Assembly: GCA_947632485.1 (NCBI GenBank)
Contig: CANRPJ010000004.1
Span: forward strand, 83,273 to 147,272
Origin: an uncultured Muribaculaceae bacterium
GTDB taxonomy: Bacteria; Bacteroidota; Bacteroidia; Bacteroidales; Muribaculaceae
DNA: 64,000 nucleotides
Reading direction: 5' to 3'
The position numbers were made by a program, and so were the translations under genes. The notes below the pieces were generated by a model that searched no databases, had not been told where the DNA came from, and saw only the letters and a list, made by a program, of their open reading frames with translations. Positions 40,738 to 63,048 of the stretch are shown in pieces. Each line of letters begins with the position of its first letter. The first letter of the stretch is position 1.

Positions 40738-41919
40738 TCAGCTTATAAGATTCAGTCTTTTTATATAGACCGGATTATTCTCGTCGAATATTGATGTATA
40801 AGGAAAATAGCGGACATCATATCCCCCAGTTGGGTATCCAAATTCTTCTGATGAAGTGTACTGCTTCACAGAATAGAAGGAAAAAGACAAGTACACCACA
40901 GCCATAGTTAGGTATAAAGGCTTATTTGTCTTTATTTTAAGATATTTAAAAATAAAATTTGAAGCGGCGATTGTAAAAATCGGTAATAAATAGATTGCCA
41001 GTCGAGTAAGAATATACAATATAGGTTGTAATGCGGATATTATTAAGTAAAGGAAGCATATTCCACAAAAAATATTGTTATTTCTCTCTTTAATTAACCA
41101 GTTTGTAACTATTAATGGCATCGCTATATATTTAAATATATTGTAAAAAAGACGACTTAGCGAATAAGATGTGATAACATTACCGTAGTTTTCATTTGAC
41201 TGATAGGCTTTCATCAAATTAGCGTTATCTTCTGAAAAAATATTTACTATGCTAACTATGTCAGCCATATATTTGGCTATAAGTTGCCCCATTATAAATA
41301 TAAGTAAGGGTATAAGTAGCATCCATCTTTTCACATTTATAAATGAAAAAAGGTATATAGCAATTAATATCAATATCCCTGTCTTATGAAATATTACACA
41401 TGGCCATGCTCTAATCAAAAAACCCTTTCTATTGTCACTAAATAATGAAAAGCATCCCCAAAGCACAAAACTCATTGCTACATCTTGACGTAATATTTCG
41501 AAACTCACACCAAAGAAAAATGATATGAAATAAAGTAATTGGCAAAGAAACGGCGCCTTAGAGTATCTATAAAAGAAAATACAAATAAGAATATTAATAG
41601 GTAGAACTGCTATCAGCTTTAGAAAGAAGAAATCTCCGAAAATTGTTTTTACTAATACCATCAGAACCGTCCACCCAGGTTCAAAACGATAAACATCCCA
41701 ATAAGCGAACTCAAAGTTAGCAAGTGTGAACGACTGATTGAAATATCTCATATAGCGTTGAGTATCAATACCCATTCTATATGATAAAACAGCAGTCACT
41801 ACTAAAAGTAATGAAGTAAAGATGTATAGAATTTTTTTTTGATTATTCTGAGACTTATGAAAATCACAGAATATTGAAGACAGAATCAATAATACAAGTA
41901 TGAAAACATAGACTCCCAT
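40738..41919 (-). CDS. EpsG-like polysaccharide polymerase (Wzy), operon M
   Basis: 393-residue integral membrane protein with about ten to twelve hydrophobic helices and the EpsG-family opening: an early helix followed by SYRMGIDTQRYMRYF and FEPGWTVLMVLVKTIFGDFF. Such proteins link repeat units at the periplasmic face (Wzy). Sequence conservation in polymerases is low, so the assignment rests on topology, length and the motif GIDTQRYMRYF (compare YDVGNDYDNYFYG in the plus operon). It lies between two family 2 glycosyltransferase genes. Confidence 0.8.
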   Translation of the reverse strand: MGVYVFILVLLILSSIFCDFHKSQNNQKKILYIFTSLLLVVTAVLSYRMGIDTQRYMRYFNQSFTLANFEFAYWDVYRFEPGWTVLMVLVKTIFGDFFFLKLIAVLPINILICIFFYRYSKAPFLCQLLYFISFFFGVSFEILRQDVAMSFVLWGCFSLFSDNRKGFLIRAWPCVIFHKTGILILIAIYLFSFINVKRWMLLIPLLIFIMGQLIAKYMADIVSIVNIFSEDNANLMKAYQSNENYGNVITSYSLSRLFYNIFKYIAMPLIVTNWLIKERNNNIFCGICFLYLIISALQPILYILTRLAIYLLPIFTIAASNFIFKYLKIKTNKPLYLTMAVVYLSFSFYSVKQYTSSEEFGYPTGGYDVRYFPYTSIFDENNPVYIKRLNLIS

Positions 41920-42013: not shown

Positions 42014-42961
42014 TTATTTTAGCTTATGCCGATAAATGAAATCTATAAGTGGAAACATGCAAAGTCTACTAAGTGTATACTTTACCCTTATCTTCAGATT
42101 CTTTTTCGTAATTTTTTTATAGGCATCAATGATATGAATCTGCGATTTGTGAACCACGGCGGAGTTAAATAGTAATATGCTTTGATTCTGTTCTAATGCC
42201 TTTTGTTCTATTCCTTTGTATTTGTCATTAAACCATGTTCTGATATCATGAAAGGATTGTAGAAACACTAATGATTTCTCTATATTCTTAGAGTGCGATG
42301 CTGAGTCTTCCAATACCCTGTATACGCCTGTTATTGTATTTATAAACTTAATTTTGCTTTTAAGAGCAAAATATAGCCATAGCGGATAGTCACCCATTTT
42401 CCAATCCTGAATAGAAGGCTGAACGTCGTTTAAATAATCGATATATAGTTCCCTTCTAAAAACAGTTGTTAAGGTTGGTATAGTATTTTTTTTAAGTAAC
42501 TCTTCGAATGACGTATATGTGCCACCCCACTCATCAATAACTTTACCTGATTTCTGATCTAAACGTTTCACCTTTGTATAGCACATGCCATAATCAGGAT
42601 GTGATTCTAAGAAATCAACTTGTATTTGAAGTTTATATGGATCAGTCCAGTAATCATCACCTTCGCATAATGCTATGTACTTTCCACGGGCTCGAGGTAA
42701 GTTCCATATAGCACTACCTGAAGGAACTCCCAAACTAAATTGATTTACCTCTTCAAAGATTGGGAAAATTATATCAGGGTATTTTTTAGCATAATCTTTG
42801 ATTATTTCGGTAGTTCCGTCAGTCGAACAATCATCATGTATTAATATCTCAAAAGAAAAAGATGTCTTTTGTGATAAAAAACCATCTATGGTTTTTTTGA
42901 TAAATGAGGCGTGATTATAAGTTATACAACTTATAGAAACGAAAGGGTTTTCTAAGCCCAT
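42014..42961 (-). CDS. Glycosyltransferase family 2 (operon M)
   Basis: 315-residue GT-A enzyme: SISCITYNHASFIKKTIDGF at the start, EILIHDDCSTDGTTEIIKDY, and LCEGDDYWTDPYKL for the DxD-like metal site. Later, GVYRVLEDSASHSKN resembles acceptor-region motifs of similar Bacteroidales proteins. It ends 94 nt before the polymerase gene in the transcript, and 44 nt separate it from the preceding SDR gene. It would add one sugar of the repeat unit. Donor not predictable. Confidence 0.88.
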   Translation of the reverse strand: MGLENPFVSISCITYNHASFIKKTIDGFLSQKTSFSFEILIHDDCSTDGTTEIIKDYAKKYPDIIFPIFEEVNQFSLGVPSGSAIWNLPRARGKYIALCEGDDYWTDPYKLQIQVDFLESHPDYGMCYTKVKRLDQKSGKVIDEWGGTYTSFEELLKKNTIPTLTTVFRRELYIDYLNDVQPSIQDWKMGDYPLWLYFALKSKIKFINTITGVYRVLEDSASHSKNIEKSLVFLQSFHDIRTWFNDKYKGIEQKALEQNQSILLFNSAVVHKSQIHIIDAYKKITKKNLKIRVKYTLSRLCMFPLIDFIYRHKLK

Positions 42962-43005: not shown

Positions 43006-44016
43006 TTAATAATCAGAAGACTGACCCCAAAGTAACTTTAAAGGCTCCTCCATCATTTCTCTTTTTATCTCTTTACATGCATCAACCCATGAATATTTCG
43101 GAGTCCAACCAAGGATATCTCTAGCTTTTCTCGAGTCAAGAAGATTCTGAGGAGTGTTAGATTTTTCGGGACAATATTTCTTAATGGACTTGTTAGCAGT
43201 ATTAGAAAAAACTTCAATTATACCATCAATCTGATCTTCCAATGAATAGGGTTGATAGCCAGAGAGATTAAAGATTCCTTCAACACCAGTCTTCAGCGCC
43301 ATTTCAATAGCATAAGAAAAATCGGCTATATAGAGGAGTTCTTTCAGTCTAGAAGGATTGCCCCAAACTTCAATTTCTTTACCTTCAATAGCATTGTCAA
43401 TGATCTGACGCCATGGTAATTTCTTTTTAAAACCATTCAGATAATAATATGGGTTAGGGTGATATCCATAAACAGTCAAATGACGAAAAACACAGCTACT
43501 TATTCCATCTGAATATTTGTATGATTCCAAAATATCAACAGCTGCATTCTTTGCAATTGCGTAAATGGCATGATCACCTCCATCTTTAGGGAATGATCTT
43601 GGGGAATCGTCTGGAACAGGCATAGCTGAACCAAAGAAAGCACAAACATCTGAGGGTGTAGTATTGAAGATTACTCTTTTGCACTTAGTTTTATTTTTTA
43701 GCCATTCACACAGATTAACCATTCCTACAATAATACTTTGTATGTATGGCATTGGGTTAGCATCCGCATGTGCAGGCATTGTTCCAGCCATATGTACCAC
43801 AGCATCTATATCGGTTGGAAGTTTTATATAATCAGATGGATTCTCCAAAGAGAATCCACCAATATAATCTATTGATTTCGTATTAAAAAAACCATTATCT
43901 GTTGTACGATGTCCTACAGCAACAATATCATATCCTATATCTTTAAGATGCAAGGCCGCATAGGCTCCCAATTGTCCTGTCGCTCCAAGAACGAGAATTT
44001 TATTTATTTTTTTCAT
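43006..44016 (-). CDS. NAD-dependent epimerase/dehydratase (operon M)
   Basis: Extended short-chain dehydrogenase of 336 residues from the ATG at 44016; a GTG immediately before it could also serve. The nucleotide loop is ILVLGATGQLGAYAALHL, and the catalytic Tyr-Lys is in IYAIAKNAAVD. GNPSRLKELLYIADFSYAIE resembles the C-terminal part of sugar epimerases. It follows the ATP-grasp gene with a 17-nt overlap, so the aminotransferase, the ATP-grasp enzyme and this protein form a coupled trio that probably builds a modified amino sugar. The actual reaction is not readable. Confidence 0.83.
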   Translation of the reverse strand: MKKINKILVLGATGQLGAYAALHLKDIGYDIVAVGHRTTDNGFFNTKSIDYIGGFSLENPSDYIKLPTDIDAVVHMAGTMPAHADANPMPYIQSIIVGMVNLCEWLKNKTKCKRVIFNTTPSDVCAFFGSAMPVPDDSPRSFPKDGGDHAIYAIAKNAAVDILESYKYSDGISSCVFRHLTVYGYHPNPYYYLNGFKKKLPWRQIIDNAIEGKEIEVWGNPSRLKELLYIADFSYAIEMALKTGVEGIFNLSGYQPYSLEDQIDGIIEVFSNTANKSIKKYCPEKSNTPQNLLDSRKARDILGWTPKYSWVDACKEIKREMMEEPLKLLWGQSSDY

Positions 44017-45223
44017 CACTAACTACATTAATATTACACCATTTAGATATTGACTTGAGTACATTATCAAGAATTGATTGGGAGGGAAATTTTAATACCA
44101 ATGTCCCAATCGCATCATTAGCTCCACGAAACGAATGAACAATTTCTCCCGGAACTACCCAAAGATCGATTTCATGCACATATTTTTCGTACTCTGGCGA
44201 GATGCTGATAGACTCGAATTTTCCTTCGGAATCACTGTGGAGTATCACTTCTGCCCAGTGACCATCATACGTTACTGTTTTTAGCTCTCCTATTTCATCT
44301 CCCACAGCAGCGCGAACACACGCTGTAATCATATCCTCCTTAGTGGCATAGCGAATCATTTCCGCCAAACGATTACCGCCTCCTCTAGGGGAGAGTTCCA
44401 TTATATACGGCTTACCGTTCTTTCCGATGCGGGTTTCAATATTGTAAATTGACGTCTTCAGATTAAGTAGAGTTATCAAACGTTGCAATTCTGAAGTCAG
44501 ATACTGCTCTTGCTCGAGCGTGAAAGTTGAAGGCCAACTATATGCACTTGGCGTGTAAGGATTAGCTGCTTCATTATCAAACCGTTGAGCGGAAAAGGTT
44601 GTTAACACTAACTTTCCTTTTATAGAAAAGCAATCAGTATCTGAAGAACAACCTTCTTTTTCTATGAATTCTTCTATTATTACTTTTCCTGAAATAGAAT
44701 TATCCAGTGCATGGGCAAATGCTTTGGGTAATTCGCAGGGAGAATCGATTCTCATTACTCCTTTACTTCCTGCAGAATCCGTGGGCTTAACTATTAAAGG
44801 AAATGAAAATCGTTTCAAGTCTTTAACTGCGGTCTCGAAGTCTGCATAACCTCCGGAAACAGGCACATTAAAATTATTCTTTGTGAGGAAATCTCTAAAC
44901 AAGTCTTTATTCTGCAGAATTTTTACTGATTCATAAGAACCAGCAAACGGTAATCTCATTTTTTCTGCAACATAAGCGGCTGTCACAACACCAGGATCAA
45001 CAGCGAACGACAATATTCCATCAATTTTGAGTTCTTGGGCTTTTTTGAGAACAGCTTCTTTGTCGATAATACTTACATTACAGTACTCATCAGAAAACTG
45101 ATGTGCTATATTATCGGGTAGATAGTCGCATGTAATGACATAATATCCCTCTTTATGAGCTGCTTCGATAACAGGTAATAGATATCGAAGTCCTCCGAGG
45201 AGCATTAATCTTTTTTGTTTCAT
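44000..45223 (-). CDS. ATP-grasp ligase (operon M)
   Basis: 407-residue ATP-grasp protein. The N-terminal pre-grasp domain (LMLLGGLRYLLPVIEAAHKE) is followed by the ATP-binding core: FPLIVKPTDSAGSKGVMRID, KVIIEEFIEKEGCSSDTDC, and IMELSPRGGGNRLAEMI for the metal-binding end. Such enzymes couple a carboxylate to an amine through an acyl phosphate. Because its ATG overlaps the DegT aminotransferase stop by 4 nt, a plausible role is joining an amino acid or similar carboxylate to the amino sugar produced by that aminotransferase. This is inference. Confidence 0.85.
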   Translation of the reverse strand: MKQKRLMLLGGLRYLLPVIEAAHKEGYYVITCDYLPDNIAHQFSDEYCNVSIIDKEAVLKKAQELKIDGILSFAVDPGVVTAAYVAEKMRLPFAGSYESVKILQNKDLFRDFLTKNNFNVPVSGGYADFETAVKDLKRFSFPLIVKPTDSAGSKGVMRIDSPCELPKAFAHALDNSISGKVIIEEFIEKEGCSSDTDCFSIKGKLVLTTFSAQRFDNEAANPYTPSAYSWPSTFTLEQEQYLTSELQRLITLLNLKTSIYNIETRIGKNGKPYIMELSPRGGGNRLAEMIRYATKEDMITACVRAAVGDEIGELKTVTYDGHWAEVILHSDSEGKFESISISPEYEKYVHEIDLWVVPGEIVHSFRGANDAIGTLVLKFPSQSILDNVLKSISKWCNINVVSDEKNK

Positions 45224-46329
45224 TTTTTAACTAATGCAACTATTAGGTCAACATCTTCGGTGTTTAATGCATGATGCATTGGCAAGCAGAGCACTGTCTC
45301 GGCAAGTTTGTATGCCTCTGGAAGATTTTCGCGTGTGGCTGAAGGGAGTCCACGATATGTTGAGAATTCGCTGATTAGGGGATAGAAGTAACGGCGTCCA
45401 AGCACGTTGGCAGCTTTCATCTCTTCATAGAGCTCGTCGCGGGATCTTCCGAATTTCTCGGCGTCAACAAATATCGGGAAATAGCTGTAGTTGCTACGAA
45501 CGCCAGGCATCTCATCAAAGAAAGTGATACCCGGCACATCACGTAGGGCTGCGCGGTATGCTTCTGCAACTTTTCGACGCGCTTCTATGGCTGCATCAAC
45601 CTGACGAAGATTTAAAATACCGTAGGCTGCACGCACTTCGTCCATCTTGGAATTGATGCCGGGAGCAACTACTGTTGTCTCGTTGGCGAAACCGAAGTTT
45701 TTCAGATAATCAATTCTCTTCTTCGTCTGTTCATCTTTCATCACCATAGCTCCGCCTTCAATGGTATTGTATACCTTCGTGGCATGGAAAGAGAGTGTTG
45801 AAATGTCACCTTCATTCAGGATTGACTTGCCATTCACTTCCACTCCGAAAGCATGAGCCGCATCATAAATTACTTTAAGCCCGTATTTATCCGCTATTTC
45901 CTGAATTGCCTTGGTATCGCATGGCTTACCATAGCAGTGTACAGGCATTATAGCTGTAGTCTTAGGTGTAATGGCTGCCTCGATCTTAGCCGGGTTGATG
46001 CCGCAGTTAGAGGGATCGATGTCGACGAAGACAGGCTTTATACCGTTCCACCATAGTGCATGTGTAGTTGCCACGAAACTATAGGGTGTAGTGATCACTT
46101 CACCTGTGATTCGCAGCGCCTGAAGTGAGGTTATAAGGGGTAGTGTACCATTTGTGAAGAGACTCAGATAAGGTACCTTAAGATATTCGGCTAGCTCCTT
46201 TTCAAGCTGCTTATGAAAGGATCCGTTGTTAGTGACCCACTTACTATCCCAGATTTCTTTGAGCATCTGCTGAAACTCATCAAGATCAGGGAGTAGTGGA
46301 GATGTAACGGTTATTTGATTATCAGCCAT
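45220..46329 (-). CDS. DegT/DnrJ/EryC1-type sugar aminotransferase
   Basis: 369-residue PLP enzyme that transfers an amino group to a nucleotide-linked keto sugar. The PLP lysine is Lys185 in SFHATKVYNTIEGGA, the early NGTLPLITSLQAL and TPYSFVATTHALWW are typical, and IYDAAHAFGV carries the aspartate that contacts the pyridine nitrogen. It is closest in feel to the VioA/FdtB branch that makes 3- or 4-amino-deoxy sugars, but that is a weak impression. GC content is visibly higher than in neighbouring operon-M genes, which suggests a separate origin. It is third in the operon, after the flippase. Confidence 0.88.
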   Translation of the reverse strand: MADNQITVTSPLLPDLDEFQQMLKEIWDSKWVTNNGSFHKQLEKELAEYLKVPYLSLFTNGTLPLITSLQALRITGEVITTPYSFVATTHALWWNGIKPVFVDIDPSNCGINPAKIEAAITPKTTAIMPVHCYGKPCDTKAIQEIADKYGLKVIYDAAHAFGVEVNGKSILNEGDISTLSFHATKVYNTIEGGAMVMKDEQTKKRIDYLKNFGFANETTVVAPGINSKMDEVRAAYGILNLRQVDAAIEARRKVAEAYRAALRDVPGITFFDEMPGVRSNYSYFPIFVDAEKFGRSRDELYEEMKAANVLGRRYFYPLISEFSTYRGLPSATRENLPEAYKLAETVLCLPMHHALNTEDVDLIVALVKK

Positions 46330-46353: not shown

Positions 46354-47796
46354 TTATTTTCTTCTGGCCTCCTTGAGAAAACCAATTGCATCGCGCAAGT
46401 CGCGAGAGCCGGTAATTCGTGTAATTGTGATGAAAAAGAGAATTCCTACCGCAATACCCAGAATCAGTTGGAGCCAGAGATTGGAGAGAATATTAACGAT
46501 TCCCCAAACTAAAGCACCTGTAAGGAAGCTATAAATAAGAATAGGAATTAAATCCTGCATCTGAGTAAAGAATCCCACTTGAATAAGCTTTCCCGTGTAA
46601 TGAGTGTTTATAACAAGGGCTATGATCGAACTTATAAGTGCACCCCAGCATATAGCCACAAGTCCCATAGGTACAGTCACACATAAGATACCCACTCCCA
46701 TAAGCTTTTTCCAAATTTCAAGTTTTAGAAAAAGATCACTACGTCCTTTGACCTGAAGAAGATTGAGATTTATGGCATGAACTGGATACCACATCATATT
46801 CAAACATATAATCTGAAGAAGAATTACAGAAAAAGCCCACTTTTTAGTCAGTACAAGTATTATTAGAGGGTGAGCGACAGCGGCCAGACCAATCATTAGT
46901 GGAAAAATAACAAATGCTGACAAACGAAGAAATCGCCTATAGACGTCGCGGAGCCTGTCATCATCATTTTGGATAGTGCACAATAAAGGAAAGGTCACTC
47001 TTTGAATTATACTCGTGACATTGGAGGAAGGAAAATTGGCAAACTGATGTGCACGAGTATAATACCCTAAATCTGAAGCACTGAAAACTTTACCAATTAC
47101 TATGAGATAAACATTATCATAAATTGTACTGATGATTCCAGACAAAGCCAGTTTGGAACCGAATCCGAAAAGCTCTCTAAACGATCTCCAAGAATATAAC
47201 CACTTGGGTCTCCACTTAGAGAACAACCATAGTAATCCTACATTGACAGCGAGATTCGTGAGTTGATACCAGACAATTGCCCATACACCGAATCCAGTGT
47301 AAGCCATGAGAACGCCAACGACACCAGATATAACAGATGCCGACAATGATGCTTTCGCCTGAGTCTTAAAATCAATTTTGATTATGAACAGAGCTCTCTG
47401 AACCACCACAAATGAGTTTATCAGTACACTAAGCGAAATCAGGCGTGTGAGAGGCGTGAGAATCGACTCTTTGTAAAAACTTGCAATAAGTGGGGCACTA
47501 AAAAACAATATCAAATAAATGATTATCCCGACACCAATGTTAAAGAAGAACACAGTAGAGTTATCGAGCTCAGATCGGTCTTGTTTCCTTATCAAGGCCT
47601 GGGAAAAACCGCTGTCGACAAGTGATTGCGATACAGCAATAAACACAGTCAGCATACCTACCAGGCCATAGTCGTCTGGGGTAAGGATTCGAGCCATGAT
47701 TATCATTACCAGAAAAGAAACTCCCTGAACTGAGAAACGCTCGACTACGCTCCATATAGTTCCCCTAAAGGTCTTATGTTTTAATGATTCTGCCAA
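46354..47796 (-). CDS. Oligosaccharide flippase (Wzx), operon M
   Basis: 480-residue polytopic membrane protein of the PST/MATE-like flippase group, which moves lipid-linked repeat units to the periplasmic face. It has 12-14 hydrophobic helices and the family N-terminus SVVERFSVQGVSFLVMIIMA followed by RILTPDDYGLVGMLTVF, with GFSQALIRKQDRSELDNSTV close behind. This order is nearly identical to the plus-operon flippase (RLLTPDDFGIMVTAIMVISF, GFQKYIIQQ). It is the second gene of operon M, 15 nt after upxY. Two separate flippases in one locus mark two independent Wzx/Wzy pathways. Confidence 0.9.
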   Translation of the reverse strand: MAESLKHKTFRGTIWSVVERFSVQGVSFLVMIIMARILTPDDYGLVGMLTVFIAVSQSLVDSGFSQALIRKQDRSELDNSTVFFFNIGVGIIIYLILFFSAPLIASFYKESILTPLTRLISLSVLINSFVVVQRALFIIKIDFKTQAKASLSASVISGVVGVLMAYTGFGVWAIVWYQLTNLAVNVGLLWLFSKWRPKWLYSWRSFRELFGFGSKLALSGIISTIYDNVYLIVIGKVFSASDLGYYTRAHQFANFPSSNVTSIIQRVTFPLLCTIQNDDDRLRDVYRRFLRLSAFVIFPLMIGLAAVAHPLIILVLTKKWAFSVILLQIICLNMMWYPVHAINLNLLQVKGRSDLFLKLEIWKKLMGVGILCVTVPMGLVAICWGALISSIIALVINTHYTGKLIQVGFFTQMQDLIPILIYSFLTGALVWGIVNILSNLWLQLILGIAVGILFFITITRITGSRDLRDAIGFLKEARRK

Positions 47797-47811: not shown

Positions 47812-48831
47812 TTAGTTACCGTCTAAATAATAATCATATTCGGTCAGAAGCTCACGCTGGGATTTGGAGGGAGTAGCTTCCTCTTCGGCTCCTGACTTTA
47901 GCAATTCGTAAGTTGTCCTTAATGAATCAAACTCGTTTGTTGACACTCCTAAGAGGAGTTCGATTAGAGCTTTGGTCCAGGGATTTGTCACTGTGGAGCG
48001 AAGTTTCTCGAATCGTGCGGAGGAGAGACGATAGCCTGACACATCGCCCAATATTGTCTGAACGCACATCAAGGTCGCGAGCAATTTCGCCTCGAGTTTC
48101 TGATTAGAAGGACTCACTACGCACATGCGCTGGTTGAATACTGTCAGAATCGAACGCTCCTTTTCTGTCAGCGTTTCACCAGCGTGGTATTTTCGAAGTA
48201 TAGGAAATAATTTTGGAATAAATGATTCCAGAATGTCGTATTGGCGGCGAGTGTCACGTGCGAATTGAAGAATACGGATATACTTAGCATCTACGTCCCA
48301 AAGGACGGCTCCCATCTGAGCTGTGGCAGCTATTACCAGATTCCCTTTCGCGCTACGCGGTTTTGGCAAATAAGTTCCTCTCAGACCAGCAAATTCTCCG
48401 CTTACCACTTCCACCTCATCGCCCGCTTCAAGATCAATATCGCTGATATTGAAGAAGGGAATGGTATTAGTATGAGCCCTTGAGATGATCTTGAAGTTCT
48501 CCATCTCCTGATCGCTAAGAATGCCATATCGCCTTTCCGAACCACGATCCAGCATCATACTCAGATCATTGTAAGGACTCGAACACAGCTTCTTAACATC
48601 GTCAAGAACGCCATTTACGAACACATAATAATAGGTAAGCAGTTGATCTCTATAGACTACTTTTCCCTTTACGATATGCGCCGGACGGATTATCGGAGCA
48701 AACAATTCAAGACGCTTCTCCCCTTTGTTGAAATCTTCAATTTCTTTCTGCGGAGATGGACGACCTGAACGCCTGATAAAGTTCAGCACATACCAATGTC
48801 TATCACCCTGACCCGATGACTGCGGTACCAC
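47812..48831 (-). CDS. UpxY-like (NusG-type) capsule antiterminator, operon M
   Basis: First gene of the minus capsule operon. The N-terminal NusG domain begins with WYVLNFI at residues ~13-19 and shows LLTYYYVFVNGVLDDVK. A KOW-like segment follows at ~135-165 (LEAGDEVEVVSGEFAGLRGT). Then comes a helical C-terminal extension of ~150 residues with no domain I recognise; UpxY of Bacteroides fragilis is only about 170 residues. UpxY proteins keep RNA polymerase going through their own capsule operon. The start is odd: only a GTG at 48831 is in frame, while an ATG at 48874 is one frame off (see findings). The active promoter lies at 48993-49023. Confidence 0.85.
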   Translation of the reverse strand: MVPQSSGQGDRHWYVLNFIRRSGRPSPQKEIEDFNKGEKRLELFAPIIRPAHIVKGKVVYRDQLLTYYYVFVNGVLDDVKKLCSSPYNDLSMMLDRGSERRYGILSDQEMENFKIISRAHTNTIPFFNISDIDLEAGDEVEVVSGEFAGLRGTYLPKPRSAKGNLVIAATAQMGAVLWDVDAKYIRILQFARDTRRQYDILESFIPKLFPILRKYHAGETLTEKERSILTVFNQRMCVVSPSNQKLEAKLLATLMCVQTILGDVSGYRLSSARFEKLRSTVTNPWTKALIELLLGVSTNEFDSLRTTYELLKSGAEEEATPSKSQRELLTEYDYYLDGN

Positions 48832-48923
48832 AAAATTGGTAATTGGGTAATCCTTCAGTTGGCCCTTCTTTCATCAAACAAGCTGATAACAAGAGACTTG
48901 AATGACTAAAAAGAGCTTAACTA

Positions 48924-48982
48924 CCGAAAACTTTCCGGTGGAATCTCTATGTTTCAGTAAGTATCTCTTAGCAAGAGTTACT
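48924..48982 (+). repeat. Inverted repeat, left arm (IRL)
   Basis: 59 bp beginning CCGAAAACTTTCCGG, identical to the reverse complement of 49138-49196 except at 48939 (T against A). It includes most of the dyad recombination site. Confidence 0.95.
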
Positions 48983-48985
48983 TAC
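48957..48985. repeat. 29-bp dyad, candidate recombinase crossover site (left)
   Basis: GTAAGTATCTC, a 7-bp core TTAGCAA, then GAGTTACTTAC. The two 11-bp half sites are inverted with one mismatch. The 11-7-11 geometry is that of tyrosine recombinase sites. Inversion between the centres (48971 and 49149) would flip about 178 bp. Confidence 0.6.
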
Positions 48986-48992
48986 TTTAGTG

Positions 48993-49023
48993 CAAAGGTA
49001 ATAAAAAACCTTGATTCACCAAA
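48993..49023 (-). promoter_or_regulatory. Invertible promoter, now driving operon M
   Basis: Minus strand: TTTG (49023-49020), 19-bp spacer, TACCTTTG (49000-48993), the exact Bacteroidota consensus. Transcription should begin near 48987 and run through the left repeat arm into upxY. Inverted, the -7 box would map to about 49120-49127 on the plus strand, giving a ~95-nt leader to the ATG at 49229. Confidence 0.82.
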
Positions 49024-49134
49024 AGTAACGGAGAAAGTATTTGAAGGGTGAATGGGGGGCGAATTTTGAGTAATGGTTAGTTTAGCTCTTAATAGTTCTT
49101 GATAATTTGCTAAATTCCAGCTATTTATACTCAG

Positions 49135-49163
49135 GGTAGTAACTCTTGCTAAGAGATACTTAC
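49135..49163. repeat. 29-bp dyad, candidate recombinase crossover site (right)
   Basis: Inverted partner of 48957-48985 with the core TTGCTAA at 49146-49152. The outer half site is identical. The inner half site differs at two or three terminal bases where the repeat ends. Confidence 0.58.
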
Positions 49164-49196
49164 TGAAACATAGAGATTCCTCCGGAAAGTTTTCGG
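49138..49196 (-). repeat. Inverted repeat, right arm (IRR)
   Basis: Reverse complement of 48924-48982 with one mismatch in 59 bp. It ends 32 bp before the ATG of upxY of operon P. Confidence 0.95.
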
Positions 49197-49228
49197 AAGT
49201 TTGGCTCGTGCAAAGCTAAAACCTCTTA

Positions 49229-50293
49229 ATGGTCAGCGCTTTACCCAAATACGAGCCAAATAAAATTATACTCCATCAGGTTATGGCGCCTGTAGTAGCT
49301 ACTTCTTCTGCTTCGTCATGGTATGTGCTGAATTATATCGGCGGATCAAGTCACGAAACGGCGCAAAAGGCTGTAGACCGGTTCAATACGAAAGCGCAAA
49401 AGGATCTTGAGATCTTTGCACCTACGTATGTAATTAAAGATGACAGTGATGGGGAAATCCGCTTCAAGACGGTTCGGCTGACGTTTCACTACGTGTTCGT
49501 TAGAGGCGCTTTTCAAGATATAAAAGAACTATGCGGCCAGCCAAACGGTTTTTCATTTCTCCTCTCACGAGGCAGCGCTGAGCGTTATGCAACAGTTGAT
49601 GACCGCGCAATGGCCAATTTCCAGAATATAGCCCGCGCTTATAAAAACTGTCTCCCCTACTTCTCCTTGGAAGACATTGATCTCGAGGAGGGTGACTTAG
49701 TTGAAGTGGTCAAAGGTGACTTCCCTGGCCTGGTCGGCACCTATATTCCGACTCCGCGGAGCAAGAGCGGCAACATCGTGCTTAACATATATAATAATGT
49801 GGGCACCATAGCCTTCAATGTAAAAGCCTCAGATATCAGGATCCTGGAGTTTTCCCGTAAAAGTACGCGTGCCAACGACCAGCTTGATGCCTTCCTGCCC
49901 CATCTTCTAAGCGCTCTGCGTTACTACTATCGTGGTGAGCCTCTTCCCGCCTCTCTGGCAGCAAAGCTATCCGTATTCGTTGGCCGTATGGGCGTTGCCA
50001 AGTTACCGAGCCGTAAACTTGACGCTCGCCTACAGATGTTACTCTACGCCTCCAATCAGATAATCGGTAACGCAGCTGAAGCTAATCGAGCTTACACAAA
50101 ATATGAGCAGATCAAGGATTCCATAACAAACGTCTGGACACAGGCCGCCCACACATTGATTACATCGGTATTGAATAATGATAAATCCCTTCTTGCTCAA
50201 ACTTATAGAGAACTGCATCAAATAGAGAATCCGTCCAAACTGCAGCAATTCACCATTTGCGAATACGGTTATTATATGCTATCCTTACCATAA
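49229..50293 (+). CDS. UpxY-like (NusG-type) capsule antiterminator, operon P
   Basis: First gene of the plus operon, 354 residues from the ATG at 49229, and clearly a paralog of the upxY across the switch. It has SWYVLNYIGG at ~31-40, RLTFHYVFVRGAFQDIKELC, the KOW-like DIDLEEGDLVEVVKGDFPGL, and a similar helical C-terminal extension of ~150 residues. The N-terminal leader of ~30 residues (MVSALPKYEPNKIILHQV) has a weak counterpart in the out-of-frame leader of the other copy. In the sequenced orientation no promoter points at it. UpxY proteins act on their own operon, so each operon would need this gene in order to be read through. Confidence 0.87.
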   Translation: MVSALPKYEPNKIILHQVMAPVVATSSASSWYVLNYIGGSSHETAQKAVDRFNTKAQKDLEIFAPTYVIKDDSDGEIRFKTVRLTFHYVFVRGAFQDIKELCGQPNGFSFLLSRGSAERYATVDDRAMANFQNIARAYKNCLPYFSLEDIDLEEGDLVEVVKGDFPGLVGTYIPTPRSKSGNIVLNIYNNVGTIAFNVKASDIRILEFSRKSTRANDQLDAFLPHLLSALRYYYRGEPLPASLAAKLSVFVGRMGVAKLPSRKLDARLQMLLYASNQIIGNAAEANRAYTKYEQIKDSITNVWTQAAHTLITSVLNNDKSLLAQTYRELHQIENPSKLQQFTICEYGYYMLSLP

Positions 50294-50348: not shown

Positions 50349-51248
50349 ATGACCAAAGATATAATCAAAAGATGGGCTAAACACCCTTCAATTTTTATAA
50401 GTGCTGTTTTAGTCAAGTTTGGTAAGTATTTTCCTGATAAACTATATCTTAAGCTAAAATATTATTCAGTCTTTGGAAAGAAACTTAATCTTAAGAATCC
50501 TCAGACCTTCAACGAAAAACTACAATGGCTTAAACTCTACGACCGAAAGCCTGAATACACTACTATGGTAGATAAAGTTGAGGCGAAAATATGGGTCGCA
50601 GAGCGAATTGGTGAGGAATATGTAATTCCTACTCTCGGGGTGTGGGATCGTGCTGAAGATATTGATTTCGATTCATTGCCCGATCAATTCGTACTAAAGA
50701 CCAACCACGACAGTGGCGGCATTATAATTTGCAAAGACAAGTCGAATCTTGATAAGGAAGCAGCAAGAAAGAAACTTAATTCATCACTAAAAAGAAATTT
50801 CTACGAATTTGGCAGAGAATGGCCCTATAAAAGCGTACAACCTAAGGTGTTAGCTGAGAGAATACTCCTGTCAGATTCTGAAGACGGGGACATCCCCGAT
50901 TATAAATTTATGTGCTTTAACGGCAAAGTAGAATGCTGTTTTATTGTGACGGAACGACATTCTGACACGGGAATAAAAGTTACTTTTTTAGATAAGGACT
51001 GGAATAGAATGCCCTTTACTAGACACTATCCAGCGGCCGATAGAGTATTAGCTAGACCTGTAAACTACGATGTAATGGTAAATCTGGCAGAAAGACTTTC
51101 TGCAGGTACAAAATTTTTAAGAGTTGACTTTTACGAAGTTAACAATAAAATCTATTTTGGAGAACTAACCTTTTTCCCCGGCTGCGGTTACGAAGAATTC
51201 TCTCCCGAAGAATGGGATTATAGACTAGGTAACCTGATTAAACTTTAG
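50349..51248 (+). CDS. TupA-like ATP-grasp protein (operon P)
   Basis: 299-residue protein of the TupA-like ATP-grasp family common in capsule and teichuronic acid clusters. Family segments are NPQTFNEKLQWLKLYDRKP near the N-terminus, YTTMVDKVEAKIWVAERIG, FVLKTNHDSGGIIICKDKS for ATP binding, and FGELTFFPGCGYEEFSPEEW at the C-terminus. Its precise reaction is unsettled; it may ligate an amino acid to a uronic acid or act as a glycosyltransferase-like enzyme. Uronic acid genes (epimerase and Ugd) at the end of the operon fit such a role. Second in operon P, 55 nt after upxY. Confidence 0.87.
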   Translation: MTKDIIKRWAKHPSIFISAVLVKFGKYFPDKLYLKLKYYSVFGKKLNLKNPQTFNEKLQWLKLYDRKPEYTTMVDKVEAKIWVAERIGEEYVIPTLGVWDRAEDIDFDSLPDQFVLKTNHDSGGIIICKDKSNLDKEAARKKLNSSLKRNFYEFGREWPYKSVQPKVLAERILLSDSEDGDIPDYKFMCFNGKVECCFIVTERHSDTGIKVTFLDKDWNRMPFTRHYPAADRVLARPVNYDVMVNLAERLSAGTKFLRVDFYEVNNKIYFGELTFFPGCGYEEFSPEEWDYRLGNLIKL

Positions 51249-51354: not shown

Positions 51355-52800
51355 ATGACTGAACTGAGACAGCAAGTCATAAGCGCCACTAAATGGTCAA
51401 CACTCACAGAGGTTATAGCAAAGCTTGTTACCCCAATTACGTCTATCGTATTAGCTCGCTTGCTAACACCTGATGACTTCGGTATAATGGTGACCGCAAT
51501 AATGGTCATTAGTTTTGCTGAAATATTTACTGATGCAGGATTTCAAAAATATATTATTCAACAGCCCTTCGAAAACGAGTTAGATCTCTATCGTGCTACT
51601 AACGTGGCATTTTTGTCAAATTTAATTCTATCAATCACAATATGGGTTATTATTATTATATTTTGCCAACCTATTGCAGAATTGGTTGGTAATAAGGGTC
51701 ACGGAGATGTTATAGCAATTTCTTGTGTATGTATTCCGCTTAGTTCATTTTCAAGTATTCAAATGTCTCTTTTTAAGCGGGCACTAAATTTCAAATTACT
51801 ATTTTGGGCTAAGTCAATCGGCATTTTAGTACCAATAGTTGCAACAATACCAATAGCATTTGTAACTCGTAGCTATTGGGCACTAATTATTGGTATGATA
51901 GCTCAACAATTATCAAACGCTATTATTTTAACCGCTAAATCTCCCTGGAAACCCTACTTATGGTATAGTTGGTTTAATTTCAAACAGATGTTTTCTTTTA
52001 GTGCTTGGTCAATGCTTGAAGCACTTAGCATTTGGCTAACAGGTTATTGTGACGTGTTTATTATTAGCACGGTTCTCAATGACTACTATTTAGGAATATA
52101 CAGAACTTCCATAACAACCGTAGGCCAAATCTTAGGTATTATAACCACCGCTACTACATCGGTCTTATTTAGCTCCCTATCTAAAGCGCAAAATGATGAA
52201 AATCAGTTTGCAAAAATTCTCTTCAAATTTCAAAAAACAGTTGGCCTTGTTCTTTTACCTTTATCAATTGGTATATTCGTTTTCAGGTCCTTAATTACAG
52301 ATATACTTTTAGGATCGCAATGGCAAGAGGCAACTTGGTTTATTGGAATTTGGGGACTTTCAAGTGGAATAACAATATTATTATCTCATTATTGCAGCGA
52401 AGTATTACGTGCCAAAGGCAAACCAAAATTATCTACTTTATCTCAGGTCATTAATATCTTTATCTTAATACCTCTTATTCTTTATGCTGTGCATCAGCCA
52501 TTTAACGTACTCTGCGACATAAAGGCAGCCTCAAGGGTTTTCTTAATAATTTCTACACTTATTATTACGTACTTATATGTAAAAATATCACCATGGAAAA
52601 TGATTTCGAATATTAAACTTCCTCTTCTGTCAGCCATTATAATGGGAGTAATAGGCTATTTTCTCACTATTAGCTATACAGGAGTAATTGCTTACATATT
52701 GGAAATTGCTCTTTGTAGTCTTACATATATTTTACTCATTATTCTGTTTCCGTCTACCAGAGGAGAATTAAAAAATTTAAGAAAATTTATTTTCAAATGA
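51355..52800 (+). CDS. Oligosaccharide flippase (Wzx), operon P
   Basis: 481-residue polytopic flippase of the PST family that exports lipid-linked repeat units. N-terminal signature: KWSTLTEVIAKLVTPITSIV then LARLLTPDDFGIMVTAIMVI, with GFQKYIIQQPFENELDLYRA close behind, then 12-14 hydrophobic helices. It is a distant homolog of the operon-M flippase. Very AT-rich, unlike the core genome. The end overlaps the CapA-like gene by 4 nt (ATGA), so translation is coupled. Confidence 0.9.
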   Translation: MTELRQQVISATKWSTLTEVIAKLVTPITSIVLARLLTPDDFGIMVTAIMVISFAEIFTDAGFQKYIIQQPFENELDLYRATNVAFLSNLILSITIWVIIIIFCQPIAELVGNKGHGDVIAISCVCIPLSSFSSIQMSLFKRALNFKLLFWAKSIGILVPIVATIPIAFVTRSYWALIIGMIAQQLSNAIILTAKSPWKPYLWYSWFNFKQMFSFSAWSMLEALSIWLTGYCDVFIISTVLNDYYLGIYRTSITTVGQILGIITTATTSVLFSSLSKAQNDENQFAKILFKFQKTVGLVLLPLSIGIFVFRSLITDILLGSQWQEATWFIGIWGLSSGITILLSHYCSEVLRAKGKPKLSTLSQVINIFILIPLILYAVHQPFNVLCDIKAASRVFLIISTLIITYLYVKISPWKMISNIKLPLLSAIIMGVIGYFLTISYTGVIAYILEIALCSLTYILLIILFPSTRGELKNLRKFIFK

Positions 52801-53918
52801 ACATTATAATTGCAGGTGACTACTACCCACAGGGGCTTTTTAATTGGGATCCAGAAATCGAATCAATAGTAAAGTCATCAGATTACTCTATTATTAATTT
52901 CGAATCTCCAATAATTAGCAATGGTAGCACACCAATTATAAAATTTGGTCCCAATCTTCACTCTACAACGGACTCCATTGATTCACTACAAAGATTAGGA
53001 TTTTCATGTGTTACGTTAGCTAATAATCACATAATGGACTTTGGCTCAGATTCTTTACTTAATACAATTGAGATACTAAATGAGCGAAAGGTTGACTACG
53101 TGGGAGCAGGAGAAAGTAGTAAAAATGCAGCGAAGCCTATTATAAAGCAACTTGGTAACAAAAAGATTGGTATTATAAATTGTTGTGAACATGAATTTTC
53201 CGTAACCGATAGAGAGAGTCCAGGTGCAAATCCATTAGACCCAATTTCACAATACAATTCCATAAAGGCTATTAAAAATAGCACTGACTATATTATCGTA
53301 ATAGTTCATGGAGGACCAGAAGGATTTCAGCTGCCTTCGACAAGAATGCAAGATAATTATAGGTTTCTTATTGATGCCGGTGCTAACATAGTCATAAACC
53401 ACCATCAACACTGTTACAGTGGTTATGAAAACTATAATAACGGACTTATTTTCTATGGATTAGGCAACTTTTTCTTTCCAAAAACCTCTGTTGTTAATAC
53501 TTCATTATGGGAAGAGGGGATTTTTCTAAAGTTACATTTTGAAAACTCAAAAATACATTATCATATCTATCCCTATAAACAAGACTCGCTACAAAGGCGA
53601 ATCGAATTAATGGACGAAAAAGGAATCCAAAACTTTAATAATCGAATTGCATACTTAAATTCTATAATAAAAGATAGGGATAGGTTAGAGAAGGAAAATC
53701 GCCTATGGAGATTAGAAACTGAAACCCAATATAAGAGCAGCCTTTCTCCATACAACAACAGATATCTAACAAAACTTTGGCTTAAGAAATGGCTCCCATG
53801 CAATATAGGCAGGATTAGGCTAACAAAACTCATAAATTTTATAGAATGCGAATCTCATAGAGAAAGATATATATCTTATCTAAAGAATCTATTAAAAGAA
53901 GAGAACTCTATAAATTAA
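52797..53918 (+). CDS. CapA-like metallophosphatase-fold protein (operon P)
   Basis: 373-residue protein of the PGA_cap/CapA family, related to the CapA proteins of poly-gamma-glutamate capsules and to calcineurin-like phosphoesterases. Metal-binding motifs are the early IIIAGDYYPQ, INFESPIIS, VTLANNHIMDFGSDSL, IVIVHGGPEGFQLPS and VINHHQHCYSGYENY in family order. No signal peptide is seen, so it would work in the cytosol here. In capsule clusters its role is undefined. Alternatives are a phosphatase on lipid-linked sugars or an anchoring factor. Confidence 0.86.
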   Translation: MNIIIAGDYYPQGLFNWDPEIESIVKSSDYSIINFESPIISNGSTPIIKFGPNLHSTTDSIDSLQRLGFSCVTLANNHIMDFGSDSLLNTIEILNERKVDYVGAGESSKNAAKPIIKQLGNKKIGIINCCEHEFSVTDRESPGANPLDPISQYNSIKAIKNSTDYIIVIVHGGPEGFQLPSTRMQDNYRFLIDAGANIVINHHQHCYSGYENYNNGLIFYGLGNFFFPKTSVVNTSLWEEGIFLKLHFENSKIHYHIYPYKQDSLQRRIELMDEKGIQNFNNRIAYLNSIIKDRDRLEKENRLWRLETETQYKSSLSPYNNRYLTKLWLKKWLPCNIGRIRLTKLINFIECESHRERYISYLKNLLKEENSIN

Positions 53919-53987: not shown

Positions 53988-54758
53988 ATGACAACGTTAA
54001 ACAAAATAGTAATATATACGAGCTTAACCGGAGGTTACGATAATCTACCGGAATATAAAGCAATCGACAAAGAATGTTCTTACATTTGCTTTTCAAATGA
54101 TTATCCGGCTAACAGTAAAATTGGAAATTGGACAATCAAACCAATCCCTATGATTAGTAATGATTTAATTCGAACCTCTAGATATGCTAAACTCCAACCT
54201 CATAAATTATTAAGCGATTATGATTATTCAGTTTGGCTTGACTCTAATTTGATTATTTCAGATAAATGCTTCTATGATCACATAAAACAAACAATTTCTA
54301 CTCATAACAATGGGTGGCTTGGAATCCGTCATCCAAATTGCGATTGTATCTATGAAGAAGCAGAACGATGTGTAAGTCTACGAAGAGAGAGATTCATTAG
54401 TATATATCCATTAATTAGAAAATTAAAACGAGAAAAATATCCTCGGCATAACGGATTATTCGAAAATAATCTAATACTAAGAGCACATAATAATAAGCAA
54501 ATAGCTCATTTATGCGATAGCTGGTGGGAAATTTATAATCATTATTGTAAACGTGATCAACTAAGTCTCTTTTATATCTTTTGGAAATCAAATTTTACAC
54601 CAGAACTATTATATCACAACGGCCTTTCGACATATAACATTCCAGGAATAGAAAGGCTAAAGCATAAAAGAATTCATAAAAACAAATTCTCTCTTATAGA
54701 TAATTTACTAAAGAAGAGAAATAAACTTTTTATAAAGCTCATTCACCCTTTTAGTTAG
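53988..54758 (+). CDS. DUF616/TOD1-like glycosyltransferase domain protein (operon P)
   Basis: 256-residue protein of the glycosyltransferase-like group defined by DUF616. Its start, KIVIYTSLTGGYDNLPEY, and DYDYSVWLDSNLIISDKCFY (a DxD-like site) match this family. HNGLFENNLILRAHNNKQI and WWEIYNHYCKRDQLSLFYI close the domain. Such proteins probably add a sugar to the growing repeat unit; no biochemistry is known to me for the bacterial members. It is AT-rich and lies 1 nt upstream of the polymerase gene. Confidence 0.82.
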   Translation: MTTLNKIVIYTSLTGGYDNLPEYKAIDKECSYICFSNDYPANSKIGNWTIKPIPMISNDLIRTSRYAKLQPHKLLSDYDYSVWLDSNLIISDKCFYDHIKQTISTHNNGWLGIRHPNCDCIYEEAERCVSLRRERFISIYPLIRKLKREKYPRHNGLFENNLILRAHNNKQIAHLCDSWWEIYNHYCKRDQLSLFYIFWKSNFTPELLYHNGLSTYNIPGIERLKHKRIHKNKFSLIDNLLKKRNKLFIKLIHPFS

Positions 54759-54759
54759 A

Positions 54760-55875
54760 ATGGCTATATATTTATTAGTATACTCAATAACCCTACTATG
54801 TTTTATATCAAAGAAAAAGATATTACAAAATGTAGGATTTATAGTTTTATGTTTATTTACAGTTCTTAGATACGACGTCGGTAATGATTATGACAACTAC
54901 TTCTACGGTATTGAATCTACTGCAAATAGCTTCAGAGAACATCATTACCTTGACGCAATAATTCATTGTAGGGATCTTGCTTCGATCATAATAATATTTC
55001 TTTGTCAATACTTTCCAAAACCCCAACTTTTTGTAATCGGCATCTATGGGGTATTAAGTTTAATTCTCTTTCGGAAATCACTATTTCTATTACCCGGAGA
55101 AAAAAACTTAAACCTATTCTGGGGTTTCTTAGGCATTTATCTTCTAACAATATATCCCTATTCGTTGAATGCGATAAGGCAATCTGTATCCATTGGCGCC
55201 TTTTGCGTATCAATAAAATACATACAAAAAGCAAACATAAAAAGATATCTTAGTCTTATACTAATAGCATTTGCCTTCCATACCTCTGCAATCATATTAT
55301 TTCCACTTTACCTAATCAGAAAGTTCAAAATTGGTATTATATTAAAGAGTGTAGTACTTATCATCTTAACTTTGGGAGCTTTTACTGGTTCTTGGAGTCC
55401 CCTCTTTGAGAAAATAAAATACTTCTCCGTATTTTATGAAGGAATGTCTGATACCTATCTAAATGCTGTAGAAATGAACTCCGGCCTAGGGTTCCTCTTA
55501 AAAGTAATATTATATTTCTCGATAATTTTAGTATGTCAAAAGAAATTCCCAATTATTAGCAACATAATATTCATAAGCCTTTGTTTATACTTGTTTTCTT
55601 CATCGGTAGCAATTTTCGAAAGAATAGCATTCTATCTCATGTTCGTATCATATTTAGCTATTCCACTTATAATGGAAAGAAGAAACATAAGCACACAAAT
55701 TATATTTCAAAAATATTTCATTTCTCTTACATTATTAATATACGGTGGTTATGAGACGTACAAAGGGGCTTATGGTATATTACCCTATAAAACAATTTTT
55801 TCGCGAGAAATTGAATATCATAATTTCAAAATAAGAGATTATAGAAATAGTATCAACATCCATTTAGGAAGATAA
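54760..55875 (+). CDS. EpsG-like polysaccharide polymerase (Wzy), operon P
   Basis: 371-residue integral membrane protein with about ten helices. RYDVGNDYDNYFYG near residue 45 and the surrounding pattern are typical of EpsG-family polymerases, as is IYPYSLNAIRQSVSIGAFC. It would join repeat units at the outer face of the inner membrane. Low conservation makes the call depend on topology and the GNDYDNY motif, which parallels GIDTQRY in operon M. It follows the DUF616 gene by 1 nt and precedes a family 2 glycosyltransferase by 7 nt. GC content is very low. Confidence 0.82.
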   Translation: MAIYLLVYSITLLCFISKKKILQNVGFIVLCLFTVLRYDVGNDYDNYFYGIESTANSFREHHYLDAIIHCRDLASIIIIFLCQYFPKPQLFVIGIYGVLSLILFRKSLFLLPGEKNLNLFWGFLGIYLLTIYPYSLNAIRQSVSIGAFCVSIKYIQKANIKRYLSLILIAFAFHTSAIILFPLYLIRKFKIGIILKSVVLIILTLGAFTGSWSPLFEKIKYFSVFYEGMSDTYLNAVEMNSGLGFLLKVILYFSIILVCQKKFPIISNIIFISLCLYLFSSSVAIFERIAFYLMFVSYLAIPLIMERRNISTQIIFQKYFISLTLLIYGGYETYKGAYGILPYKTIFSREIEYHNFKIRDYRNSINIHLGR

Positions 55876-55882
55876 ATTTAAT

Positions 55883-56758
55883 ATGATAGTAGATGTATTA
55901 CTAGCAACATACAATGGAGAGCAATTCATTGAGAATCAGATACTCTCTATACTAATGCAAACTAATGACGAATGGAGACTATTAGTGCACGATGATGGCT
56001 CTACTGATAAGACATTGGAAATAATAAAAAAATTCGAATCGGTAGATTCAAGAATAATATTAATAGACGATGGTATCACTGGTTTAGGCCCAGCAGGAAA
56101 TTTCATGCATCTACTGAAATATGCGACTTCAGACTTTATTTGTTTTTGTGATCAGGATGATATCTGGTTAGAGAATAAAATTCAAAAACAATTAGAAGCA
56201 ATACTCCGTAAAGATAATTCCAAACCACAAGTAGTGTTTTGTAACAAATACATTTGGGAAAAGGGGGAAATTAGAAAATATCCACTTCGGAAATATTACA
56301 GGTTCTCTGAGATTCTTTTTCAAAATGGTGGTGCACAAGGCTGTTGTGCAATATTTAATAAAGAGTTGCTCACACGTATGCAAAAGGAGTATGATTTTGT
56401 AGCAATGCATGATCATTTGTTGACTCTATGTGCGATTATGGAAAATGGTATCAACTACCAAAACGATAGACTAATACTTTACAGAAGGCACGCTAATAAC
56501 GTTACTCAAATTAAGAGAAGTTTTCTTGAGCGCATGAAGAAAAAAAGCCCCTTAATAGAACCAAAATACTATAGGGGCATTAAAGCATTTTATAAAACAA
56601 ATTCTGAATATATTGATCAAAAACAAAAAAGGGAAATTTACGACTATTTATATTTTCCCAAAGCTAATAAGTTATATCAGTTAACATCTATTCTAAAACA
56701 CGGATATTCAATATATAAAAGTAAGACTAGATTTCTATTAAAGTGGGTCATACATTAA
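55883..56758 (+). CDS. Glycosyltransferase family 2 (operon P)
   Basis: 291-residue inverting GT-A enzyme: VDVLLATYNGEQFIENQIL, VHDDGSTDKTLEIIKKF and FICFCDQDDIWLENKI contain the canonical nucleotide- and metal-binding positions. It closely parallels in layout the operon-M enzyme at 39820-40725. Near the C-terminus, ILYRRHANNVTQIKRSF is a recurrent motif of rhamnosyltransferase-like proteins. Donor and linkage are unknown. Confidence 0.9.
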   Translation: MIVDVLLATYNGEQFIENQILSILMQTNDEWRLLVHDDGSTDKTLEIIKKFESVDSRIILIDDGITGLGPAGNFMHLLKYATSDFICFCDQDDIWLENKIQKQLEAILRKDNSKPQVVFCNKYIWEKGEIRKYPLRKYYRFSEILFQNGGAQGCCAIFNKELLTRMQKEYDFVAMHDHLLTLCAIMENGINYQNDRLILYRRHANNVTQIKRSFLERMKKKSPLIEPKYYRGIKAFYKTNSEYIDQKQKREIYDYLYFPKANKLYQLTSILKHGYSIYKSKTRFLLKWVIH

Positions 56759-62090: not shown

Positions 62091-62101
62091 GATTTCTTTC
62101 T

Positions 62102-63016: not shown

Positions 63017-63048
63017 ATTACTTTATTCTGAATTCTACATATACAGCT

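Follow-up and report, generated by a model that had tools for sequence, protein, structure and literature searches.

The window analysed here, a 64,000-nt stretch of contig CANRPJ010000004.1 from an uncultured Muribaculaceae bacterium that probably lives in the gut, contains one predicted promoter enclosed by inverted repeats and flanked by two divergent operons, each headed by a UpxY-like regulator gene. Our analysis indicates that this promoter is probably flipped toward either of the two surface-polysaccharide operons, the likely invertase being the tyrosine recombinase encoded at 34435-35676. Recombination between the two inverted sites would reset the direction of the promoter: as sequenced it faces the left leader, the left UpxY-like gene and the left operon, and after inversion the right leader, the right UpxY-like gene and the right operon. 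The transcript would start within an arm and enter a conserved leader RNA, where the UpxY-like protein likely antiterminates. We infer from sequence comparison that the cassette inverts, that this recombinase inverts it, that the operons are transcribed in this way through functional leaders, and that two glycans would be made to the exclusion of each other, with a cell always making one of them. The original prediction, made from the letters of this DNA, had proposed such a toggle; it is supported by a matched site pair, an intact recombinase gene of a linked family, both cassette orientations in relatives, outward leaders on both sides, and a second back-to-back pair in another genus (G303).

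One predicted promoter between two divergent operons

The arms are 59 bp long and alike at 58 of 59 positions (62/64 when extended outward), and they enclose 155 bp (48983-49137); on re-measurement, these values agreed with those first reported. The promoter, which had been described as the only consensus promoter there and as facing left, is indeed the sole exact match to TTTG-N17-23-TAnnTTTG within 35855-61409, and the whole window holds six exact matches against 1.31 expected from shuffles. No plus-strand promoter with two or fewer mismatches (18-22 bp spacers) was found between the two start codons. When the cassette was inverted in silico, the first base of the consensus promoter moved to 49097 and the promoter faced right. 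The cassette, and likewise its 21-bp site (up to three mismatches), occurs at one place only in the 2.6-Mb genome. As with the invertible capsule promoters of Bacteroidales, a consensus promoter lies within inverted repeats ahead of a UpxY-type gene and a Wzx/Wzy operon, and at this locus such a gene and operon are present on both sides.

Reading frames and Pfam matches confirmed the proposed gene counts (12 in the left operon and 11 in the right; Table 1). Members of families shared by the two operons are 22-29% identical, and the UpxY-like pair is 39% identical. Two different glycans are predicted from the gene families, the left one perhaps carrying a phospho group added by LicD and the right one perhaps containing a uronic acid. 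The description of the operons as complete was too strong: neither has a match to the priming transferase family PF02397 (the genome-wide search covered this kind of priming enzyme only), whose two matches in the genome lie at C4:16194-16742, outside the window, and at C16:47932-48510.

The regulators had been called paralogous upxY genes pointing away from each other, and their divergence and relatedness stand, while their class and the start of the right gene required revision. NF033644 (UpxY) is the best match of both (E 2.2e-16 and 4.3e-16), with a NusG-like N-terminal half, and we call them UpxY-like because their scores fall below the curated cut-off of that model. The right gene probably starts at ATG 49283 and not at 49229, where its frame opens, because the leader RNA ends at 49277; proteins of relatives align to the right UpxY-like protein from 49283 onward. 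This long UpxY-like type was detected in 36 of 111 genus genomes (E 1e-3, two-row profile, counting weak matches). Among family genomes that are at least 80% complete, 45 of 361 had it (E 1e-20).

Predicted recombination site and linked recombinase

Each arm carries one copy of a recurrent site of the general form ATCTCT-N5-AGAGAT, with one half-site deviating from the usual form (AGAGTT for AGAGAT). At up to three mismatches, the site was present in 30 of 111 genus genomes, including the present one, and a reversed-pattern control in 5 of 111. Around such sites, 17 of 20 loci had two copies 139-368 bp apart.

The recombinase reading frame is open over its full length, and its Phage_integrase catalytic domain scores 41.2 bits against a cut-off of 27.1, which identifies a tyrosine recombinase. 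Homologues 52-56% identical to it occur in four of the 20 site loci; at E 1e-60 the family has one member in the genome and at least one in 74 of 111 genus genomes. A strict inverted site pair stands beside the recombinase family in 11 of 29 relatives' loci, and all 11 pairs have reverse-complementary centres, none being direct. Such pairs were absent from other integrases of the genome (0/8), from shuffles (0/1450), and from 17 regulator loci (0/8 UpxY loci of the order and 0/9 distant NusG/UpxY loci); the control loci total 83.9 kb as against 108.9 kb for the recombinase loci. The evidence that the recombinase would act on the repeats is this linkage of recombinase family and site type, which makes the enzyme the likely invertase of the cassette.

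Relatives of the UpxY-like genes were collected with an alignment profile, which gave 28 loci from 116 stretches (one protein searched against genome contigs gave none); their titles name Muribaculaceae, Bacteroides sp., Bacteroidales, Porphyromonadaceae and one Eggerthellaceae, probably a wrong label. The recombinase lies upstream of the UpxY-like gene in five of these 28 loci (L133, L139, L142, L149 and L152), with a cassette between the two genes in L133, L139 and L142. In the window, the left operon sits between the recombinase gene and the cassette. Because the three relatives have the recombinase next to the cassette and the cassette next to the UpxY-like gene, the left operon was probably inserted at a later time, separating the recombinase gene from its cassette.

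Contig C16 of the same genome carries another UpxY gene (123.3 bits; L233 9450-9645 and 9814-10350) with an inverted site pair upstream (centre TTAGA, no exact promoter inside) and a PF02397 priming gene approximately 16 kb downstream. One recombinase may act on both the C16 and the window site pairs.

Leader RNA and arm length

Most UpxY-like genes of the 28 relatives' loci are preceded by an element of approximately 90 nt that carries TTTTCGG, AAGTRAGAG-like bases and a long helix. A literal motif search did not find the leader in the relatives; reading their leaders gave another conserved core. The leader alignment comprises 23 relatives and the two window leaders (L143, L146 and L155, in which no TTTTCGG was found, were omitted, as were L150 and L157) and contains an invariant UUUUCGG. 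Its covarying 8-bp helix, which was chosen from the same alignment it is scored on, has 82.5% of cells paired (shuffles, 70.8%) and 29 doubly changed cells (shuffles, 9.1); slid versions of the helix reach 20.5-44.1% and 6-13 cells, and the helix without the window rows has 83.7% paired and 27 doubly changed cells against 8.2. Coarser measures were weaker, with six pairs showing a double change against 4.3 (reached by 44 of 500 shuffles) and 17 further pair types against 14.3 (reached by 21 of 500).

Model R2, for which only the 23 relatives were used, matches the genome at both flanks of the cassette, pointing outward, and nowhere else (E up to 5; 150 of 792 first-look candidates scored); run on the window alone, it gives two further matches at E 1.4. 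In a search of the window stretch against Rfam 15, no family scored above its gathering score for the leader, and by that measure this UpxY leader RNA would be previously undescribed. It is likely used by the UpxY-like protein for antitermination. At E up to 1, the Rfam family MIR8562 matched both strands over the inverted repeat with 54.5 and 43.3 bits; its gathering score is 211, and these matches were taken as chance.

The first seven to ten bases of the leaders lie within the arms and hence are alike; the remainder lies outside the arms. In relatives' cassettes the exact arms are 12-22 bp. When nine of these (L131, L136, L139, L140, L142, L144, L151, L155 and L158) were compared by eye, their outward sides looked unrelated beyond the site, and in eight of nine a leader start (GAAAA of CCGAAAA, read inward) was seen on the right within 40 bp, whereas none had one on the left. 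At the window locus both outward sides continue 38 bp further, to the leader start CCGAAAA; arms reaching both leaders are found here and in none of the nine. The extra arm length corresponds to a second leader start on the blind side, and therefore a working two-way layout is favoured.

A second back-to-back pair

Genome G303, of another genus, contains a UpxY gene pointing left (102.2 bits, above the cut-off) and a long UpxY-like gene pointing right, 495 bp apart (L151/L213). They surround a cassette with exact arms of 22 bp and one exact promoter, with no opposed promoter at up to one mismatch (18-22 bp spacers). The genes on the left include two FdtA, HAD, NTP-transferase, racemase, hexapeptide protein, DegT and Wzx, and those on the right NTP-transferase, DegT, epimerases, a family 2 glycosyltransferase, Wzx, GT11 and an EpsG-type protein.

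From 99 distinct UpxY/NusG-like open reading frames, 76 had at least 60 bits and 1 kb upstream, and 25 rows had a cassette within 900 bp; after merging of one split gene and two shared cassettes, there were 24 genes on 22 UpxY-side cassettes, two of which are two-sided. A family-wide profile search had seemed to place a divergent pair in the present genome only. That result was misleading and was rejected, as the profile sees long UpxY-like proteins only; a profile that included the short ones found the G303 pair. An order-wide search gave a match in 385 of 393 genomes, with no further divergent pair among the matches listed.

These data lead us to favour, by a modest degree, the broader view that two-way capsule switches recur in Muribaculaceae, with a second glycan taking the place of the OFF state. 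On this view, the blind side of an invertible promoter would have acquired another UpxY operon on two or more independent occasions, and at the window locus the arms would have grown to duplicate the leader start, giving the same antitermination entry signal to either transcript.

Cassette orientation in relatives

Pairwise comparison of 49 cassettes gave 26 flank matches, of which 6 rows (four pairs) were inverted relative to the flank, 10 rows (eight pairs) were in the same orientation, and 10 rows were undecided; that is, homologous cassettes are inverted relative to their flanks in 4 of 12 decided pairs. Two inverted pairs each fall within one metagenome-assembled genome (G014 C151/C194 and G135 C7/C93), and the others are G135/G057 and G005/G014. 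Their identities of 75-98% mark the inverted pairs as haplotypes, paralogues or related species and not as a single clone. A member of the recombinase family lies beside the cassette in G135 C93 and G057 C282. Reading of the comparison suggests a further inverted case in G148, unscored by the script. No cassette of these pairs was seen to adjoin a UpxY-like gene. Neighbours on both sides were known for 36 of 46 distinct cassettes, and 10 had divergent neighbours within 600 bp; apart from the two back-to-back pairs, L089, L140 and L144 have a UpxY-type gene on one side, with a gene of another kind opposite.

Alternative explanations

Several observations weigh against a two-way switch. The contig crosses the cassette in one orientation only. 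At 15-25 bp spacers there is a plus-strand candidate promoter at 49040-49068 (17-bp spacer, one mismatch), along with a second at 49065-49100 (24-bp spacer, two mismatches); of 3000 mononucleotide shuffles of the interior, 452 gave a one-strand site with no more than one mismatch. The rightward site at 49040-49068 appears weak and unremarkable against the shuffles, but through it the two operons may at times be expressed together, contrary to the earlier claim. It lowers our confidence in the two-way reading by a small amount, leaving that reading probable. Both regulators score under the NF033644 cut-off (60.3 and 59.3 bits against 100), the left leader is the weaker match, and its helix has non-standard pairs at three positions. 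The left leader in G303 has no match to the leader model, and the recombinase family was not found on G303 C27 5000-43000. Eighteen of the 29 recombinase loci have no strict site pair within 1.5 kb or less on each side, although two of these (L103 and L121) have a pair of a looser site. Finally, the exact promoter points away from the UpxY-like gene in all eight UpxY-one-sided cassettes that have an exact promoter (L131, L134, L136, L139, L140, L142, L144 and L158; the two-sided L151 would be the ninth), and the ON orientation was not seen. The assemblies of relatives would show the OFF state, which a two-way layout would convert into expression of the other operon.

An ordinary on/off switch of one operon, with the other silent or driven by a non-consensus promoter, is in our judgement unlikely. 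It agrees with the one-sidedness of 20 of the 22 UpxY-side cassettes and with the weak rightward site within the cassette; however, leader RNA is found on both sides, both operons are open frame by frame, the distance from the right arm to the first possible right start is 32 bp only, and 35855-61409 contains no other exact consensus promoter. A false assembly join, in which two one-sided loci with a common cassette were merged into one contig, seems quite improbable. Although inverted repeats are often break points and the contigs of several relatives break off at such cassettes or close to them, the cassette and the site are single in a genome rated 99.78% complete, the arms differ by one base, the flanks differ, and an unrelated second genome has the same layout. 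The deviant half-site, the one mismatch between the arms and the single orientation in the contig might point instead to a relic that inverted formerly and no longer does, but the site is the same in the two copies, their centres match, and no stop interrupts the recombinase frame; we give this explanation hardly any weight.

Relation to known systems

Invertible capsule promoters are already well known. In PMC8375218, PMC12632263 and PMC3090145, the Bacteroides fragilis PSA-PSH and B. intestinalis PVR7-12 loci are described as UpxY-headed Wzx/Wzy operons, each preceded by a promoter that inverted repeats enclose; the stretch that inverts in B. intestinalis measures 183-186 bp, with transcription starting in the proximal repeat. 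Each promoter is described there as ON or OFF for one operon, in agreement with the original prediction's account of Bacteroides capsule promoters. The window locus is like these systems in its repeat-enclosed promoter ahead of a UpxY-headed Wzx/Wzy operon but unlike them in having a second operon opposite. A local tyrosine recombinase adjoining an invertible promoter of polysaccharide genes is also described in PMC4747536, where inversion of IVp-II left the gene pair on its other side (groES/EL) unchanged; here, in contrast, a second UpxY operon lies on the other side. LoaP, a NusG paralogue, acts via a hairpin of the UNCG type in the operon leader, according to PMC12691694; the leader described here, with its invariant UUUUCGG, resembles that hairpin, and antitermination by the UpxY-like proteins is predicted. 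The literature searched, part of it in excerpt and with Jiang et al. 2019 outside its scope, does not describe a single invertible promoter placed between two capsule operons, which is not proof of absence; the sharing of such a promoter by two capsule operons appears new.

In its site and its linked recombinase, the window locus differs in type from the Mpi serine recombinase system. The two-way logic has a precedent in Campylobacter fetus, whose sapA S-layer switch, in work attributed to Dworkin and Blaser in 1996, reportedly uses a single promoter on an invertible segment to serve several genes. That segment is larger than the window cassette, and the genes are oppositely oriented. By its layout, the window cassette likewise has one promoter able to face either of two divergent targets, with the weak opposed site remaining. 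C. fetus is an unrelated bacterium in which the switch concerns S-layer protein genes and no capsule operons; the likeness is one of logic, and no homology is claimed.

Capsule phase variation in gut Bacteroidales is usually described as separate on/off switches. If one promoter does serve both operons, the loss of one coat would be tied to the gain of the other. Cells could then avoid an uncoated state at this locus, and selection by phages or immunity against either coat would act directly in favour of its alternative. The locus would also provide a compact test bed: a single cassette, candidate recombinase and conserved leader RNA lead to two outcomes, and a second natural case is at hand for comparison.

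Features of the window and other cassettes

Table 1. Features of the window; the genes of each operon are listed in order from the cassette outward.
Feature	Positions	Strand	Basis or remark
Left arm, inverted repeat	48924..48982	.	58/59 identical to right arm
Right arm, inverted repeat	49138..49196	.	58/59 identical to left arm
Predicted recombination site, left copy	48961..48981	+	sequence GTATCTCTTAGCAAGAGTTAC
Predicted recombination site, right copy	49139..49159	-	inverted copy of GTATCTCTTAGCAAGAGTTAC
Predicted invertible promoter TTTG-N19-TACCTTTG	48993..49023	-	facing left, consensus match
Left leader RNA	48841..48933	-	model R2 from relatives only, 32.8 bits
Right leader RNA	49187..49277	+	model R2 from relatives only, 55.8 bits
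Tyrosine recombinase gene, likely invertase of cassette	34435..35676	+	PF13102 + PF00589; family adjoins inverted site pairs in relatives
Left operon: UpxY-like gene, GTG start	47812..48831	-	NF033644 60.3 bits; in-frame stops just upstream
Left operon: Wzx-type flippase	46354..47796	-	Pfam
Left operon: DegT-family aminotransferase	45220..46329	-	Pfam
Left operon: ATP-grasp protein	44000..45223	-	Pfam
Left operon: epimerase/dehydratase	43006..44019	-	Pfam
Left operon: family 2 glycosyltransferase	42014..42961	-	Pfam
Left operon: EpsG-family (EpsG-type) protein, likely Wzy polymerase	40738..41919	-	Pfam
Left operon: family 2 glycosyltransferase	39820..40725	-	Pfam
Left operon: IspD-like cytidylyltransferase	39058..39777	-	Pfam
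Left operon: NAD-dependent epimerase/dehydratase	38039..39070	-	Pfam
Left operon: LicD-family protein	37035..37976	-	Pfam
Left operon: group 1 glycosyltransferase	35855..37027	-	Pfam
Right operon: UpxY-like gene, probable ATG start 49283 (open reading frame opens 49229)	49283..50293	+	NF033644 59.3 bits
Right operon: TupA-like ATP-grasp	50349..51248	+	Pfam
Right operon: Wzx-type flippase	51355..52800	+	Pfam
Right operon: CapA-like (PGA_cap)	52797..53918	+	Pfam
Right operon: TOD1/MUCI70-type glycosyltransferase-like	53988..54758	+	Pfam
Right operon: EpsG-family (EpsG-type) protein, likely Wzy polymerase	54760..55875	+	Pfam
Right operon: family 2 glycosyltransferase	55883..56758	+	Pfam
Right operon: group 1 glycosyltransferase	56824..57885	+	Pfam
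Right operon: group 1 glycosyltransferase	57888..59018	+	Pfam
Right operon: epimerase/dehydratase	59015..60079	+	Pfam
Right operon: UDP-sugar dehydrogenase	60093..61409	+	Pfam

Directly after the right operon, the minus strand of the window (61497-63693) carries an unmatched open reading frame of 197 aa, a protein-kinase-like gene and a BspA-type leucine-rich repeat gene.

Cassettes were also seen between other divergent genes in relatives (L087, L088, L089 and L093: FHA protein; AAA-ATPase/PEGA protein; UpxY-type/TPR protein; HAD hydrolase). A cassette of the same type lies beside the recombinase, between a divergent DUF4007 gene and a restriction-like gene, in L103 2810-4229 (G102 C34) and L121 1-1467 (G022 C25). 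The restriction-like gene matches a phosphorothioate-DNA restriction protein weakly (33.6 and 27.6 bits against a cut-off of 180), and these are perhaps phase-variable defence loci. In L111 1773-2357 (G009 C44), a gene with weak matches to the sigma-70 family lies directly past a cassette of the same type and the recombinase.
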